NCBI GenBank assembly: GCA_002753495.1
Contig: PEAJ01000006.1
Location: forward strand, 1-37,386
Origin: Magnetococcales bacterium HA3dbin3
GTDB lineage: Bacteria > Pseudomonadota > Magnetococcia > Magnetococcales > DC0425bin3
Length of the DNA: 37,386 nt
Reading direction: 5' to 3'
The stretch's first letter is position 1. The number at the start of each line of letters is the position of its first letter. Shown piece after piece: positions 4,025 to 11,253 of the stretch. The notes under the pieces are model-generated. The model ran no database searches, had not been told where the DNA came from, and saw only the letters and a list, made by a program, of their open reading frames with translations. The translations under genes and the position numbers were made by a program.

Positions 4025-4438
4025 TTACAACTCAAGAAACTGCCTTGGTGAAACCACGGCAACGCTGCCATATTCGGTATTCTTGAAATCTTTCAGGTTT
4101 CCTGTGACAAGAAAATCAGCATTCCCGGAAATTCCGGCCTCAAGATATTTCAGGTCATCCTCATCAGGAAGAGATATTTCGAGGTGTTCAGGCTGCACAA
4201 ATATTGCAATATTTGAAATAATATCAATAAGTTCACTCAACTCATCAAAGCGTTCTGCGAAATATTTCCTTTTTGAAACCTCGCGATATTCATTCAGAAT
4301 TTCATCTGATAAAATCACAACCCCCTCACGAACGGCCCTCTCAATCACTTTATAACAAACACCTCTCGTCAAACCTGCGGATATGACAACGTTGCAATCT
4401 ATTATGACCCTCGTTTTCCTCTTCTTTCCGCACGCCAC
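4025..4438 (-). CDS. PIN-domain putative toxin (type II TA)
   Basis: TRVIIDCNVVISAGL N-terminal acidic motif, ILSDEILNEYREV, PDEDDLKYLEAGISGNADFLVTGNLKDF core motifs of the PIN toxin family; overlaps an AbrB-type antitoxin upstream. Exact start uncertain. Confidence 0.85.
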   Translation of the reverse strand: MACGKKRKTRVIIDCNVVISAGLTRGVCYKVIERAVREGVVILSDEILNEYREVSKRKYFAERFDELSELIDIISNIAIFVQPEHLEISLPDEDDLKYLEAGISGNADFLVTGNLKDFKNTEYGSVAVVSPRQFLEL

Positions 4439-4683
4439 TCTTTCAACTCCACTCGCACATCTTCCATGATTTTCTCCTCCTCATGGGGCCTGTCTGGAAT
4501 TCTTGCAAATAAAGCGTCAAGCCTGCCCGTCGCCCTCTTCGAAACCACGGCAACCGGAGTGAAGACAATCCTCCCCTCTTCCGCCTTTGCCTCCAACATG
4601 TCACCAATCCCAACCGGGATCGCCTCCCTCACACGAGCGGGGATCGTAACCTGAAACCTTCTTGTCACCCGGATCGATGCCAT
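4402..4683 (-). CDS. AbrB/MazE/SpoVT-type antitoxin
   Basis: MASIRVTRRFQVTIPARVREAIPVGIGDMLEAKAEEGRIVFTPV is a swapped-hairpin AbrB motif; immediately upstream of the PIN gene. Confidence 0.85.
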   Translation of the reverse strand: MASIRVTRRFQVTIPARVREAIPVGIGDMLEAKAEEGRIVFTPVAVVSKRATGRLDALFARIPDRPHEEEKIMEDVRVELKEWRAERRGKRGS

Positions 4684-4809
4684 GCTCTGTCCCTCTTTGT
4701 TGGCAACCACCGGCGGTGGAATTATTCCACCCGGCTGATTGGATCCTGCGCAAAAGGAGATTTCAAGTCAACGTCATTCTCAATGATCCACGCTTCGATT
4801 CCCTCCCCC

Positions 4810-7800
4810 CTACATCACCACCGACTCAACCTCATGCCAGCCAGCCAGGATCAGGCCGCGCCGACCATCCAGGCTCAGTCGATCCCCACAACGCACCGGA
4901 TGCCCGCTCAGTTCGCCATGATCGCGCGCCGCGCCGCGCACATTGAGCGCCTCGCAGCCCACCACGCACACCTTCGAAAGCCGCGCCGCGACGATGGATG
5001 CATGCGACGTCTGACCGCCGCGCGCCGTCAACAACCCTTGCGTCAGGGCGATCTCCTTGATGTCCTCGGGAACGGTGTCGTAGCGGATCAGGATCAACGG
5101 TGTGTTCGGATCCTCGGCGCGCAGGCTCTGGATCTGCTCGAGATTGAACACCGCGCGTCCACACAAGGTCGCCCCGCTCACGCCAATCCCCTGCGCCAAG
5201 AAGGGATCACCACTCCGGGCATCGACCTTGAAACGCCGCGCCACCAGCGGTTTTTCCGCCGTGGTGATCATGTCGCGCGTCTGCAACAACCAGACGTTGC
5301 CGGCACCGGGGCCATCAAAGGTGAACTCGATCTCCTGCGGACTCCAGCGACGATCGTAGATCAAGGATTTGGCCAGACGCAGCAGCTCGGCATAAACCTC
5401 CGGAAAACAACGTTCAAGGGAGGTGGCCGGATCGCGACCGTCGCTTGTGCACTGTTCGACCGAGATTGGCTGTGTCGCCACCAGCCCGCCGACAATATCC
5501 TCGCCCTGGTTGCCAGGCGTGAAATCCCCCCAAAGCATCACCCGGTTGAGACGCTGCCCGGGGTGCGCGGTAAAAAGCACGCCGGTGCCGGCGTTCTGGC
5601 CGACGTTGCCAAAGATCATCGTTTGCAGGACCACCGCCGTTCCCCAATCGTTGGCGATGCCGAGAATGCGGCGATAATCCTTGGCCTTGAGGGCGTTCCA
5701 GGAGTGTAGAACCTGCTGGATGCTCGCAAGCAGTTGCTCCCAGGGATCCTCGGGGATGACGATGCCGAACGTGCGCGCGGCCGTCTCGTAGGCAAGGGCG
5801 AGCTCCCGCATCTGTGTTGAGGTGAGCTCGCGTTTTTTTGTCACCCCGTGCCGACGCTTCGTCTCGCGCATCAGGTCGGAGAAAGTGGCGCGCCCGAGGT
5901 CGAAACTCATGGCCCAGGATTGGATGAAACGGCGATAATTGTCCCAGGCGAAGTAGGGATTGGCGGTCTCTACGCTGATGCCTTCGACGATGTCGCGATT
6001 GATGCCGACGTTGTGGATGGTCTGCATCATGCCGGGCATCGAGATCATCGCCCCGCTGCGCACGGAAAGCAGCAGCGGCCGCGTCGTCGACCCGTAGCGT
6101 CGCCCGATGCGCGCCTCGATCGCCGCCAGCCGCAGCCGCAGCCGGTCGGTGAAGTCGTTCCAGGCCGGCTGGTAGTGGCGGATGATCTGCCGGCAGCGGA
6201 AAAATTCGGTGGTGAGGATCGTCCCCGGCGGCACCGGCAGGCCAAGATCGCCCATCCGCACCAGATTGAACCCCTTGTTGCCAAGGAGCATCGGGTTGCC
6301 TTCCGGACAATCGGCGGCATCATCGTGAAGATCACGGAAAAGCCGCTCGGGGTTGTAGGTCATGAGCAGGTCCATGCCGCGCGGATCAAGATGGTGCTGC
6401 TGCGCGACCAGTACCTTGAGGATGCGGGCGAGATAACGATCGAGCGCCTGCAACCCGAAGGTGCCGGCAACCAGATCGCGGAAAAACACCTCGCTGATCC
6501 GTTCCAGGGCCAGGACCGGATCATCCCCACGCAGGGCACGATAACGCGGCAAGAGCATCTCTGGTGGCACCTGGGTGATGATCAGGGCGAGATTGTCGCG
6601 ATGATGGCTGGCATAGCACGTCTCGATGATCCCCTTCACCCCCTCCGACAGGCCGCGGAACAGATCCAGATACTGGTAGAAGGTGAGCGGCCGCGTGCGC
6701 AGGGAGTCTTCGAGGATGGCCAGGTAATCACGGAGCCTGTGCGAGGTGATGCCGTCGATGGCCAGGGCGCGCTGGAAGTGTCGCAACTGGCGGGCAATGC
6801 CGCGAAACCCGGCCTGGGTGATAAAATCGTCGGGGATGGTCGCGATCAACGCTTCCAGACTGACATTGGCGAGGTTTTCCAGGCGAAAGGTGAGCGAAAG
6901 GGCATCAAATTTGCGCTCGCGATATTGGCCATAGACCGACGGAATCCCGACCGCGATGTGACGTTTCTGGTAGATCTCCTCATGCGCCGGAAACACCTCC
7001 GGCGACAGGATGACCGCCTGCAACCCTTCGAGGACATCGAGCAGGGTGACGAGGAGGGCTTCATGTTCCACCTCGGCATCGAGGTCGGCGAGCAGGCGGT
7101 CGAGGTGCGGAAAACCCTGAAACGAAGCCTCGCGCAGGGCGGTGTGGATCCCCTCGAACCCCAGATTGTACTTGCGATGCAGCATGTGGTGGAGATGGAG
7201 CAGATGCGCCACCCGCCGCCGATCGCCCTCCGGCAGGTCGGCTGCCCCCATGATCCCGGGCAGGATCCGTTCCAGCGGCGTGGTGAGCAGGCTGGCCGGA
7301 TCGGCGAACCCGGCGGCGACGCAGGCGCGCTGCATCACCCGCCGCACGCCATCGACGAGCGGTCCCGTTTCGGGAATCTCCTCGAGCAACGACGCAGGCA
7401 AGAAAGGCACGAGCGGGGCCTTGTCGCCATCGAACCAGAAACGCACCGCCGCCGCCGCCAGCCCGACCGTGAGGTTGGTGCTTTCGACGTGGCACTGCTT
7501 GCGCAGGAAGTGGATCATGCGATCCTGGCGTTGCGTGAGTTCGTCGAGGTCGGTGGAGACGTTGCGCAGCTCCCCCTCGGCGCCGATCTCGTTGAAATAG
7601 ACCGGCAACAGGCGCGCAAGCTGCTTGATGAGGTTGAACACCGGCTCGATGGCGCTGTTGAGGAGACGGGTGATCTCCTTCTGGAACAGGTCGGTATCCT
7701 TGATGCAGGTGCCGGTGAGGTGAAGATTGACGATCAACGCCGACAACAGCGTCGCGCTCCATTTCGGATTCTGCCCGATCAGGGCAAGCCAGATGCGCAC

Positions 7801-9072
7801 GTTGTACAGATGTGCCGGATTGGCCACCGGTTGCCAGTCGACATCAACCCCCTGCACCGCGCTGTACTGAAAGCCGAAACGCACCGCCTCGCCCAAAAAC
7901 ATCTCCGCGAGCGCGCCGCGATTGCCCTGAAACACCTCACTGCCGATCGCCTCGATGCACTGCAAGGCGGTATGCGGAAAATGAACGACGTTGGCCTTGA
8001 GGAAGGCAAAGGTGCGCTGGAAGACATCGCGCATCCGTTCCGGCGTCTGCTCCTGACGGTGCATGAGATGAACGAGGGTGCGGTTGATGGCGCGCAGGGT
8101 CTCTTCGTGAATCAGGCCAAGCCCTTCGGTCTCCATGATGTGAAACAGAAAGGCCAGTGCCCGCTCCTCGGCCAATGCCTTCGCCTCGGAGGCGGTGGCC
8201 AGCTGTCCGAGCGCGTTCGCGGCGCGCCGATAGCCGCGGACAAGGTCGATGAAGGTGGGCAGCATGCACAGCCGCGTCGCGGCGGCGATGGCGTTTTCGG
8301 GGGTATCGCGCGTCGTGTCGTCCGGGGTCAGGATGGTGCGCAGGCTCGCCTGTTGTTCGCGCAGCCCGCGGTGGGTGATCAGGGTAAGATCGTCGGCCAT
8401 GCCGGGCAGAAAGAAGGCCTCCGGATCCGGGCGCTGCCGCCAGTAGGCGTGGCTGACATCAAGCAGGCGCGCGAGCAGATCGCGCACGATGCGCGGATCG
8501 GGCATGGTTGTCGTCGGCGATTGCCGGCAAAGCGCGAGCAGCCCGTCAAGCGCGCGCGCGAGCGGGTAGTGGCTCTGCACGAGCAGAAACAACGGGCGTT
8601 CGGGCAAGGCGGCCACCTGGCGCAACAGGCGATCAAGGCTTGCGGCGTAGGCGGCCAGGCGCGCAGGCGAAAGCTGTGCGATGACCCGCTCGAGGAAGGC
8701 GGTCAAACCCTCCAGGGCATCGCGGATGTGCTCCTCCCTGCCGTCGGCGGCCTGGAGGAAGAATGTGCCGAAGAGGTCGAGAGCCGCCGGTCCCTCGGGA
8801 TGATCGCGGTAGAGGGACCAGTTGCCAAGGGCAAACCCCTTAAGCTCCGGCAGGATCAGCGGCCAGTTGCGAAAGGGGTGGTTGAGCTCCTCGAGCAGGC
8901 GCTTGAGGGCGTCGCTGAGACCGACATACCCCGCCACCACCTCTTGCAGCACCGCGTGGCGCGGATCGACTTCGACCCGCGCCACGGCGGTATTGCGTAA
9001 ATTGACCCGGAGGGCATCCGAAGCGAGCGGCGGCCCTCCGGTTTTGCCAGCGTCTGGGCGTCTGGCGGTCAC
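4810..9072 (-). CDS. PPDK-like protein: about 920-aa N-terminal extension, ATP-grasp PEP/pyruvate-binding-type domain, phospho-His domain; no C-terminal PEP barrel
   Basis: LLGNKGFNLVRMGDLGLPVPPGTILTTE, LLLSVRSGAMISMPGMMQTIHNVG, mobile-His motif TARGGQTSHASIVAARLSKVCVVGC; ends shortly after GDRLSLDGRRGLILAGW. GTG start at 9072 preferred (GGGAG upstream) over the 9141 ORF start, which overlaps gap. Confidence 0.85.
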   Translation of the reverse strand: MTARRPDAGKTGGPPLASDALRVNLRNTAVARVEVDPRHAVLQEVVAGYVGLSDALKRLLEELNHPFRNWPLILPELKGFALGNWSLYRDHPEGPAALDLFGTFFLQAADGREEHIRDALEGLTAFLERVIAQLSPARLAAYAASLDRLLRQVAALPERPLFLLVQSHYPLARALDGLLALCRQSPTTTMPDPRIVRDLLARLLDVSHAYWRQRPDPEAFFLPGMADDLTLITHRGLREQQASLRTILTPDDTTRDTPENAIAAATRLCMLPTFIDLVRGYRRAANALGQLATASEAKALAEERALAFLFHIMETEGLGLIHEETLRAINRTLVHLMHRQEQTPERMRDVFQRTFAFLKANVVHFPHTALQCIEAIGSEVFQGNRGALAEMFLGEAVRFGFQYSAVQGVDVDWQPVANPAHLYNVRIWLALIGQNPKWSATLLSALIVNLHLTGTCIKDTDLFQKEITRLLNSAIEPVFNLIKQLARLLPVYFNEIGAEGELRNVSTDLDELTQRQDRMIHFLRKQCHVESTNLTVGLAAAAVRFWFDGDKAPLVPFLPASLLEEIPETGPLVDGVRRVMQRACVAAGFADPASLLTTPLERILPGIMGAADLPEGDRRRVAHLLHLHHMLHRKYNLGFEGIHTALREASFQGFPHLDRLLADLDAEVEHEALLVTLLDVLEGLQAVILSPEVFPAHEEIYQKRHIAVGIPSVYGQYRERKFDALSLTFRLENLANVSLEALIATIPDDFITQAGFRGIARQLRHFQRALAIDGITSHRLRDYLAILEDSLRTRPLTFYQYLDLFRGLSEGVKGIIETCYASHHRDNLALIITQVPPEMLLPRYRALRGDDPVLALERISEVFFRDLVAGTFGLQALDRYLARILKVLVAQQHHLDPRGMDLLMTYNPERLFRDLHDDAADCPEGNPMLLGNKGFNLVRMGDLGLPVPPGTILTTEFFRCRQIIRHYQPAWNDFTDRLRLRLAAIEARIGRRYGSTTRPLLLSVRSGAMISMPGMMQTIHNVGINRDIVEGISVETANPYFAWDNYRRFIQSWAMSFDLGRATFSDLMRETKRRHGVTKKRELTSTQMRELALAYETAARTFGIVIPEDPWEQLLASIQQVLHSWNALKAKDYRRILGIANDWGTAVVLQTMIFGNVGQNAGTGVLFTAHPGQRLNRVMLWGDFTPGNQGEDIVGGLVATQPISVEQCTSDGRDPATSLERCFPEVYAELLRLAKSLIYDRRWSPQEIEFTFDGPGAGNVWLLQTRDMITTAEKPLVARRFKVDARSGDPFLAQGIGVSGATLCGRAVFNLEQIQSLRAEDPNTPLILIRYDTVPEDIKEIALTQGLLTARGGQTSHASIVAARLSKVCVVGCEALNVRGAARDHGELSGHPVRCGDRLSLDGRRGLILAGWHEVESVVM

Positions 9073-9080
9073 GGCGCTCC

Positions 9081-10082
9081 CTAGATTTCGCGCGCGGCCA
9101 TGTGGTTGATCAGGTCGAGCACGCGGTTGGAGTAGCCCCACTCGTTGTCATACCAGGAGAGCACCTTCACGGTGTTGCCGATGACGTAGGTCGAGGGGCC
9201 GTCGACGATCGAGGAGCGGGGATCGCCCAGGAAGTCGATGGAGACCAGCGGGATGTCGGTGTAGCCGAGGTAGCGGCTGGTGCTTGAGCGCAGGGCATCC
9301 TGCACATCCTTCACCGTCGTCTCCTTGTCGGTGATGATGGTGGCATCAACGACGGAGACGTTCGGGGTCGGGACGCGCAGGGACATGCCGTCCAGCTTGC
9401 CCTTCAGGGAGGGAAACACCTCGCCGATCGCCTTGGCGGCGCCGGTGGAGGTCGGGATCATCGACAGGTTGGCGGCGCGGGCGCGGCGCGGATCGGAGTG
9501 CGGCATGTCGGTCAAGCGCTGGTCACCGGTGTAGGAGTGCACGGTGGTGATCAAGCCACGCTGCACGCCAAACTTCTCCAGGATCACCTTGACCACCGGC
9601 GCCAGACAGTTGGTGGTGCAGGAGGCGTTGGAAACGACGTAGTGCTGCTTGGGGTCGTACTCGTTCTCGTTGATGCCCATGACGAAGGTCTTCACGCCAC
9701 CCTTGGCCGGGGCGGAGATGATGACGCGCTTGGCGCCGGACTTGATGTGCGGCTGGGCGGCTTCGGCGTTGGTCATGCGGCCGGAGGCCTCGATGACGTA
9801 GTCGACACCGGCTTCGTTCCACTTCAGGGCATCGGGCTTGGTCTCGCCGGTGAAACGAATCTCGCGACCGTTGACGGACATGCCGTTGGCGGTTTCCTTC
9901 ACCTCCCCTTCCATGGTACGGAAGATGGAGTCATACTTGAGCAGGTGCACGAGGGAGGCACGCGGGGCCGGGTCGTTGATGGCCACGATCTGGATGTTCT
10001 TGAAAGCGGGATCCTTGTCGATGGCGCGAAACACGCAACGACCGATACGTCCAAACCCGTTGATGCCGATTTTGATGGTCAT
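9081..10082 (-). CDS. gap: Type I glyceraldehyde-3-phosphate dehydrogenase
   Basis: MTIKIGINGFGRIGRCVFRA, active site SNASCTTNCLAP, WYDNEWGYSNRVLDL. Confidence 0.97.
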   Translation of the reverse strand: MTIKIGINGFGRIGRCVFRAIDKDPAFKNIQIVAINDPAPRASLVHLLKYDSIFRTMEGEVKETANGMSVNGREIRFTGETKPDALKWNEAGVDYVIEASGRMTNAEAAQPHIKSGAKRVIISAPAKGGVKTFVMGINENEYDPKQHYVVSNASCTTNCLAPVVKVILEKFGVQRGLITTVHSYTGDQRLTDMPHSDPRRARAANLSMIPTSTGAAKAIGEVFPSLKGKLDGMSLRVPTPNVSVVDATIITDKETTVKDVQDALRSSTSRYLGYTDIPLVSIDFLGDPRSSIVDGPSTYVIGNTVKVLSWYDNEWGYSNRVLDLINHMAAREI

Positions 10083-10303
10083 GTTCTCTCTACTCCTGAA
10101 TGGATGTGGCCGACAGGCCTGTTGAATCATGTTCCGGGCCGCCCCGACCGGACCCCGCCACGACCGGCGGCGCATTGTCGCCGATCGGTGAACCCTGAAC
10201 GAAAAAAAAGTGAGCTAGAAGATATTGGATTCCTCCCCAAAAGACAACTCGGACACCCGACCCCGCGCCGATTTCCCTCCGGGTGCGCGCTGAAGGTACC
10301 TGC

Positions 10304-10753
10304 ATGCCACGCATCCAACTTTCCGACACCGTTCCGTTTGAGCCGGCGCAAATGTTCGATCTGGTTCTGGATGTACGCCGCTATCCTGAGTTTCTCCCCT
10401 GGTGCACCAAAACGCGGGTCTTCAACGAGGAGGAACGGCAGTTTGTCGCCGAACTGACCATCAGCTTTCGCGGCATGCGCGAAAGCTTCCAAACCGTCGA
10501 CCGCTTTGTGCCGTCACGCAAGGTGGAAGTCAAGTTGCGATCTGGTCCCTTTCAACATTTGGAGAACGAGTGGGTCTTCACCCCCACCGCGCAAGGGACG
10601 CGCGTCGACTTCTTCATCGACTTCAAATTCAAGAGTCGCCTGATGAATGTCACTCTGGGGCCGCTTTTTGCCCAGGTTTCGAAGCAGATGCTCGAGGCCT
10701 TTCGCAACCGCGCCTTTGTCCTTTACGGCCAAACCCTGATTGCGCCACCTTAA
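10304..10753 (+). CDS. COQ10/RatA-like START-domain protein (paralog 1)
   Basis: MPRIQLSDTVPFEPAQMFDLVLDVRRYPEFLPWCTKTRV...SGPFQHLENEWVF...FFIDFKFKSRLMN is the coenzyme Q-binding COQ10/RatA family pattern. Confidence 0.85.
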   Translation: MPRIQLSDTVPFEPAQMFDLVLDVRRYPEFLPWCTKTRVFNEEERQFVAELTISFRGMRESFQTVDRFVPSRKVEVKLRSGPFQHLENEWVFTPTAQGTRVDFFIDFKFKSRLMNVTLGPLFAQVSKQMLEAFRNRAFVLYGQTLIAPP

Positions 10754-10803
10754 GGCCCCGCCTGCCCCTTTTGCCGAATCGCAACACCGAGGAAGAGTGC
10801 CGC

Positions 10804-11253
10804 ATGTCTCGACACCAAGTCAACGCCGTCGTCCCCTACACCCCGCGGCAGATGTACGATCTGGTCGTGGACATGGACAGCTACCCGCAATTTTTGCCGT
10901 GGTGTGTCCAGGCGCGCAAGTACGACATCACCCCGACGCAGTTCACGGCGGAAATGACCATCGCCTTCAAGGGGCTGCGCGAAACCTTTCGCACGATCGA
11001 CACGCTCGTCCCCGGGCGCAGCATCCGCATTTCGCTCCTCTCCGGACCCTTCAAGCACCTGCAGAACTCCTGGGATTTCATCGCCGTGCCCGAGGGGACG
11101 CGCATCGAGTTCAGCATCGATTTCAAATTCAGCAACAAACTGCTCAGTGTCGCCATGGGGCCGCTGTTCGGCAACGTGACCCAGCGCATGGTGACCGCCT
11201 TTCGTCAACGCGCCGATGTCGTTTATGGTTCCAACCCTTCCGCCACCACTTAA
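10804..11253 (+). CDS. COQ10/RatA-like START-domain protein (paralog 2)
   Basis: MSRHQVNAVVPYTPRQMYDLVVDMDSYPQFLPWCVQARK...SGPFKHLQNSWDF...FSIDFKFSNKLLS; colinear with paralog 1. Confidence 0.85.
   Translation: MSRHQVNAVVPYTPRQMYDLVVDMDSYPQFLPWCVQARKYDITPTQFTAEMTIAFKGLRETFRTIDTLVPGRSIRISLLSGPFKHLQNSWDFIAVPEGTRIEFSIDFKFSNKLLSVAMGPLFGNVTQRMVTAFRQRADVVYGSNPSATT

Follow-up and report, generated by a model that had tools for sequence, protein, structure and literature searches.

The window analysed here, a stretch of 37,386 nucleotides from Magnetococcales bacterium HA3dbin3 (contig PEAJ01000006.1), carries a gene for a 1420-residue protein that resembles pyruvate phosphate dikinase (PPDK) and that we call the GapX-associated dikinase, or simply the dikinase. 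The gene lies on the minus strand, which the original prediction left unnamed, and follows directly upon a canonical type I gap gene (Table 1). The gap gene, counted from its ATG at 10082, sits in a longer open reading frame (ORF) that extends to 10175, and its TAG stop codon (9083-9081) stands eight bases ahead of the dikinase GTG; the spacing of 9 bp that had been predicted was thus right to within one base. A further open frame of 1050 amino acids on the plus strand (5848-9000) lies opposite the dikinase gene; since the homologues agree with the minus-strand frame, we dismiss it as an antisense shadow of GC-rich coding sequence.

Table 1. Features of the dikinase gene and its immediate neighbours (positions in the window; pLDDT, predicted local distance difference test; pTM, predicted template-modelling score)
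Feature	Position	Strand	Basis or remark
Dikinase-like gene (GapX-associated dikinase)	4810..9072	minus	1420 amino acids; GTG start 9072-9070, stop 4810-4812; orthologues
N-terminal region, residues 1-905	6358..9072	minus	No Pfam match; all-helical model (pLDDT 81, pTM 0.65)
Conserved N-terminal core, residues 395-905, proposed acceptor or partner-binding domain	6358..7890	minus	pLDDT 90.4, pTM 0.87, 50 sequences
Most conserved N-terminal motif, KRHIAxxIPSxYGxYxExKFD, K703-D723	6904..6966	minus	Key residues at least 97% conserved, 52 aligned members
PPDK-type ATP-grasp domain, approximately residues 929-1273	5254..6288	minus	K933, R1005, R1048, E1191, D1192, E1249, Q1264 and R1266 invariant
Phospho-His swivel domain (PEP-utilizers), Pfam match to residues 1325-1406	4855..5100	minus	Pfam
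Codon of the phospho-acceptor His1357 (PPDK His455)	5002..5004	minus	Aligned to H455, invariant in 15 sequences
Intergenic gap between the gap stop and the dikinase GTG	9073..9080	minus	8 bases (GGAGCGCC), with a GGAG Shine-Dalgarno-like string
Canonical type I gap, directly upstream of the dikinase	9081..10082	minus	TIGR01534, 405.6 bits (cut-off 367.2)
MazE-like antitoxin and PIN-domain gene (toxin-antitoxin pair), directly downstream of the dikinase	4025..4710	minus	At the place of gapX in the same-genus genome G001

Domain architecture and catalytic residues

Two Pfam families match the dikinase, and no others do: PPDK_N (approximately residues 929-1209) and PEP-utilizers. About 928 residues without a Pfam match precede the ATP-grasp region, in agreement with the 920 or so unrecognised residues of the original prediction. 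When aligned by phmmer, the protein matches residues 17-512 of the C. symbiosum PPDK (1DIK/1KBL), that is, the whole of its ATP-grasp and swivel halves, whereas the C-terminal barrel that binds phosphoenolpyruvate (PEP) and pyruvate is absent from this protein and from every family member examined. The ORFs of these members end 0-29 residues past the His-domain match, while full PPDKs run approximately 350-375 residues further. In the window protein the swivel domain is complete and the stop codon falls where the barrel would start; the clean end that had been predicted is therefore there, although 63 residues follow His1357 where about 45 had been counted from the His motif. Pfam and phmmer thus bear out the predicted combination of ATP-grasp and phospho-His domains without a PEP barrel.

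Among the NCBIfam models, PPDK (TIGR01828) is the best by far, with 351 bits against a cut-off of 843, as compared with 48-58 bits for the models of PEP synthase (PpsA) and 18 bits for the RPH model. By these scores the ATP-grasp half is PPDK-like and not PEP-synthase-like, and the water dikinases, to which the protein had been likened, are not its closest analogue. The equivalents of K22, R92, R135, E279, D280, E323, Q335, R337 and H455 of the C. symbiosum enzyme are invariant in 15 aligned members, and the equivalent of D321 is uniformly Glu across the family. Because the catalytic residues of PPDK are invariant, His1357 is very probably autophosphorylated from ATP.

The region ahead of these domains is predicted by AlphaFold to be almost entirely helical. 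Its core, modelled with 50 diverse homologues, is likewise nearly all helix, and the sole long beta hairpin of the core model (strands 697-704 and 711-718) overlaps the KRHIAxxIPSxYGxYxExKFD motif. Across 52 full sequences, 47 N-terminal positions reach a conservation of at least 97%, and basic and polar residues are frequent among them (E499, R503, R515, R524, H528, K703, R704, H705, S712, Y714, Y717, E719 and K721). A Foldseek comparison of the core with solved structures gave no fold match (best E 0.065), no sequence in the PDB matched it, and no Pfam family matched the core of more than one family member; the whole N-terminal region returned just generic HEAT/karyopherin matches with template-modelling scores of about 0.2 or below. 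According to these models, the barrel of PPDK is replaced at the front of the protein by a helical domain unlike any solved structure.

The original prediction had named two findings that would speak against it, a barrel within the N-terminal region and a barrel encoded by a separate partner gene. The former we reject, given the almost wholly helical models and the lack of a Pfam match. As for the latter, the host assembly contains no free gene with the barrel family PF02896, which occurs only within two complete PPDKs, although at 77% completeness of the assembly this absence is not absolute. The two full-length PPDK genes are near-identical, lie on different contigs (G000:C1:12196-14784 and G000:C292:9644-12232) and have very short branches in the tree described below.

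Neither Pfam nor Foldseek found a match in the dikinase to a known acceptor domain of water dikinases, whether barrel, rifampin-binding or carbohydrate-binding. The alpha-glucan, water dikinases (GWD/PWD) have a large N-terminal region before their dikinase modules, and GWD has carbohydrate-binding modules and a His that lies ahead of the ATP-grasp; in the dikinase, by contrast, the ATP-grasp precedes the His and no carbohydrate-binding Pfam domain is present. A carbohydrate-binding or GWD-like N-terminus was considered and set aside, as no supporting match was found. Rifampin phosphotransferase and the two-component dikinase HpeHI also join one ATP-grasp and His swivel to an acceptor domain that has been swapped (PMC4844700, PMC12167813), but similarity of their acceptor domains to the dikinase was not found, and rifampin phosphotransferase releases phosphate (Pi) in the manner of water dikinases, whereas the window protein has an ATP-grasp of the PPDK type. 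VadK (Rv1127c) of Mycobacterium tuberculosis shares with the dikinase a PPDK-derived ATP-grasp and phospho-His without a barrel, as well as a location near linked metabolic enzymes, in its case those of the methylcitrate cycle; it has a 17-residue stretch ahead of the ATP-binding domain (PMC13400623), whereas the dikinase family has a 900-residue N-terminal region and is linked to GapX and gap.

Distribution of the family and its pairing with GapX

Full-length relatives were found by a genome scan in Magnetococcales (49-61% identity), and others occur in the 'Deltaproteobacteria' metagenome-assembled genome (MAG) DeMMO2_17, in a Pseudomonadota MAG and in a Christensenella MAG (34%). The query of the distribution searches was the N-terminal region without the PPDK-like domains, which keeps ordinary PPDKs from matching, and the genomes covered are mostly MAGs of mixed completeness. 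Of 48 Magnetococcales genomes, 45 carry the region, and none of the 201 other Pseudomonadota genomes does. It is also found in the phylum to which DeMMO2_17 belongs, probably Desulfobacterota (84 of 297 genomes), and in that of the Christensenella MAG (5 of 300); a dikinase-like region also lies inside giant ORFs of Omnitrophota. Almost all members have ORFs of approximately 1360-1590 amino acids, and the same layout, a similar length and the invariant residues recur in more than 130 genomes of at least three phyla, which answers in the affirmative whether orthologues share the architecture. In a tree built from the domains that the family has in common with PPDKs, the latter form one group (support 100/100) apart from the dikinase family, the Omnitrophota sequences having long branches and an unsure placement. 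Judged from its sequences, the dikinase belongs to an old, conserved family. Literature searches for the barrel-less architecture or its link to glyceraldehyde-3-phosphate dehydrogenase (GAPDH) returned nothing specific, and experimental data on the family were not found in the literature.

One family member (L016:7755-12104) has an in-frame TGA, which may be a sequencing error, a pseudogene or recoding. Besides this family, a second type of barrel-less PPDK relative was seen in gammaproteobacterial MAGs (L032, L033, L034 and L035); these proteins have 581-626 amino acids, with just approximately 105 past the His-domain match, and one of the genomes is labelled Klebsiella pneumoniae, probably wrongly.

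We examined 52 dikinase neighbourhoods, in which neighbouring genes were taken from a simple ORF caller. A canonical gap lies directly upstream in many of them and does so in several distant genomes; the gap linkage on which the original prediction had drawn is real. A more constant neighbour is GapX, a second GAPDH-like protein, whose gene adjoins that of the dikinase in about half of the loci. The operon runs gap–dik–gapX–pgk–tpiA–secG in four genomes (L071, L075, L101 and L102), and the same-genus genome has the gene order gap–dik–gapX. In the genome of the window itself, GapX is encoded outside the window on another contig (G000:C71:104-1336) and is 64% identical to the GapX of L019.

The presence of GapX follows that of the dikinase closely. 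In the phyla of DeMMO2_17 and the Christensenella MAG, GapX was found in 74 of 75 dikinase-positive genomes, as opposed to 1 of 70 dikinase-negative ones (Fisher P about 2e-39, a value that ignores shared ancestry). The lone dikinase-positive genome without GapX has no GAPDH match at all, and in the lone negative genome with GapX the gapX gene is cut by the contig end. Among Pseudomonadota, 26 of 28 dikinase-positive genomes carry GapX, both exceptions having the dikinase near a contig end. Within Magnetococcales alone the co-occurrence is uninformative (P = 0.19), because nearly all of them carry both genes, and the evidence for the pairing therefore comes from other phyla; it is seen in several distant groups. 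The most constant partner of the dikinase is GapX and not the adjacent gap, and a functional partnership between the two proteins is, in our judgement, very probable.

In two Omnitrophota genomes a single ORF, of 3876 codons in one and 4482 in the other, encodes both a dikinase-like and a GAPDH-like domain. These giant ORFs (L120:4778-16405, 3876 amino acids, and L038:2235-15668, approximately 4480 amino acids, which adds a CsrA domain) give the impression of fusions between proteins of central metabolism. Both retain the KRH...KFD motif and the phospho-His, whereas a third Omnitrophota relative (L121) has lost the recognisable N-terminal motif and has a degenerate His motif. That the two sites are kept together and have decayed together suggests that they may also work together.

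GapX has approximately 415 amino acids, including insertions, and is about 30% identical to type I GAPDH, to whose superfamily it belongs by sequence; it scores 280-344 bits with TIGR01534, below the cut-off of 367.2, and 37 of its invariant positions are not shared with canonical GAPDHs. It retains the catalytic Cys149 and His176 as well as Thr179, Thr208, Arg231 and Asn313, of which we take T179 and R231 to be phosphate-binding residues of GAPDH. An NxGR signature replaces the region of the NAD-binding Asp32, which suggests that its cofactor may be NADP, and D181 is changed to Ser in most members. Because the catalytic residues are kept while these two sites are altered, GapX resembles an active dehydrogenase that forms acyl phosphates, but with a changed cofactor or substrate. 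One gapX gene (G062:C47:67288-68517) has an in-frame TAG, which may again be a sequencing error, a pseudogene or recoding.

The MazE/PIN pair, which in the window occupies the downstream position, is not part of the dikinase system. Linkage to glycogen synthase was considered and rejected, as it was found in few loci (L016, L064 and L069, and farther off in L014) and is weaker than the link to GapX. Divergent to gap, two tandem paralogous SRPBCC (polyketide cyclase-like) proteins are encoded on the plus strand at 10283-11253, followed by a DsbA-like protein, and this SRPBCC-SRPBCC-DsbA arrangement recurs beside the dikinase in many Magnetococcales. At the start of the contig (62-571), a repetitive stretch encodes repeated DAPPAPTRR-type peptides in a plus frame and is possibly a tandem repeat or a low-complexity artefact.

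A proposed phosphotransfer step and its alternatives

With the family and its pairing with GapX established, we infer what the acceptor of the phosphate may be. We propose, with a probability of roughly 40%, that the protein is a PPDK-derived His-phosphotransfer dikinase with an acceptor site in its N-terminal region, which works with GapX on a triose-level acyl phosphate. The ATP-grasp would charge His1357, probably by the chemistry of PPDK (ATP + Pi -> AMP + PPi + His~P), and the swivel domain would deliver the phosphate not to a C-terminal pyruvate/PEP barrel but to an acceptor site in the large, mostly helical domain that has taken its place (approximately residues 395-905, with the KRH...YGxYxExKFD and IGAEGELR...HFLRxxxHxES motifs). 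The PPDK-type ATP-grasp suggests pyrophosphate (PPi) as a product, with Pi as the second phosphate acceptor, and turnover of PPi is plausible because the host genome encodes a membrane pyrophosphatase. The acceptor would most likely be a triose-level phosphorylated carboxylate, 3-phosphoglycerate or a close relative, and the resulting acyl phosphate would be passed to GapX for reduction or, in the reverse direction, supplied by GapX, so that the two proteins would form a dikinase version of the step catalysed by phosphoglycerate kinase (PGK) and GAPDH.

Kinase–reductase pairs with such acyl-phosphate logic are known in PGK/GAPDH and aspartokinase/ASADH, and acyl-CoA synthetases like succinyl-CoA synthetase provide a precedent for transfer from His~P to an acyl phosphate. 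A small-molecule acceptor in the N-terminal domain seems to us slightly better favoured than a protein acceptor. That this molecule is a triose-level acyl phosphate, which we suggest because enzymes of the GAPDH type consume or make such compounds, is a tentative assignment, and the specific form of a PGK counterpart (ATP + Pi + 3-phosphoglycerate <-> AMP + PPi + 1,3-bisphosphoglycerate, at the helical domain, with channelling to GapX as an NADP-type GAPDH) is rather unlikely to be correct in full. Several points weigh against our proposal. Domains built of helices frequently bind other proteins, not metabolites, the genome has an ordinary gap and the operons an ordinary pgk, so that the proposed reaction is not obviously needed, and VadK, also a barrel-less PPDK derivative, has been described as a regulatory protein kinase (PMC13400623).

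The dikinase might then be a regulatory His-kinase like VadK, whose His1357 phosphate is passed to, or otherwise controls, GapX and/or GAPDH, with the N-terminal helices as a docking platform. VadK autophosphorylates and interacts with the methylcitrate-cycle enzymes encoded nearby (PMC13400623), the only, weak, Foldseek matches of the mostly helical N-terminal region are to protein-binding HEAT-type solenoids, and a near-obligate pairing with GapX would also fit an enzyme and its regulator. However, the invariant charged and aromatic residues of the core, together with its beta hairpin, resemble a binding site for a ligand more than an unspecific scaffold, and no HEAT match was returned for this confidently modelled core. 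Regulation by itself would also leave unexplained why genomes that lack the dikinase lack GapX too, since an enzyme usually outlives its regulator. We regard such a role as the strongest alternative, only somewhat less likely than our proposal. We consider it unlikely that the dikinase acts on a small molecule other than a triose-level one, such as another aldehyde/acid pair used by GapX, with its place in glycolysis operons reflecting co-regulation only. The change of D181 and the 37 invariant positions peculiar to GapX could mean another substrate, and dikinases with swapped acceptors use rifampin, phenols and glucans (PMC4844700, PMC12167813, PMC7569903), but operons with gap, pgk and tpi are repeated in distant genomes. 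Furthermore, GapX retains T179 and R231, the presumed phosphate-binding residues.

Two other explanations hold little promise. The residues of PPDK chemistry are intact, as they would be in a split PPDK that gives its phosphate to a separate PEP/pyruvate barrel, but with the only barrels of the incomplete host assembly lying inside complete PPDKs such an arrangement is very improbable. Hardly credible at all is a degenerate or mis-assembled gene, in which a truncated PPDK has been fused by chance to unrelated sequence; a few members do contain in-frame stops, as in L016, but the conservation of architecture, length and invariant residues across phyla refutes it.

If our proposal of a triose-level phosphotransfer is true, the dikinase would be to PGK what PPDK is to pyruvate kinase. 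The reactions of central glycolysis are regarded as completely catalogued, yet a 1400-residue enzyme sits in a gap–pgk–tpi operon of several genomes, and its presence there would mean that the triose step has a reaction, or a control by phosphorelay, that is new. Because GapX accompanies it almost without exception, what was an orphan dikinase becomes a two-protein hypothesis open to direct test, and the N-terminal core, confidently modelled and with no match in the PDB, is a target for structural work. Since the dikinase is almost always accompanied by GapX wherever it is present, our findings point to a step of central carbon metabolism that involves two proteins and has not been described before.

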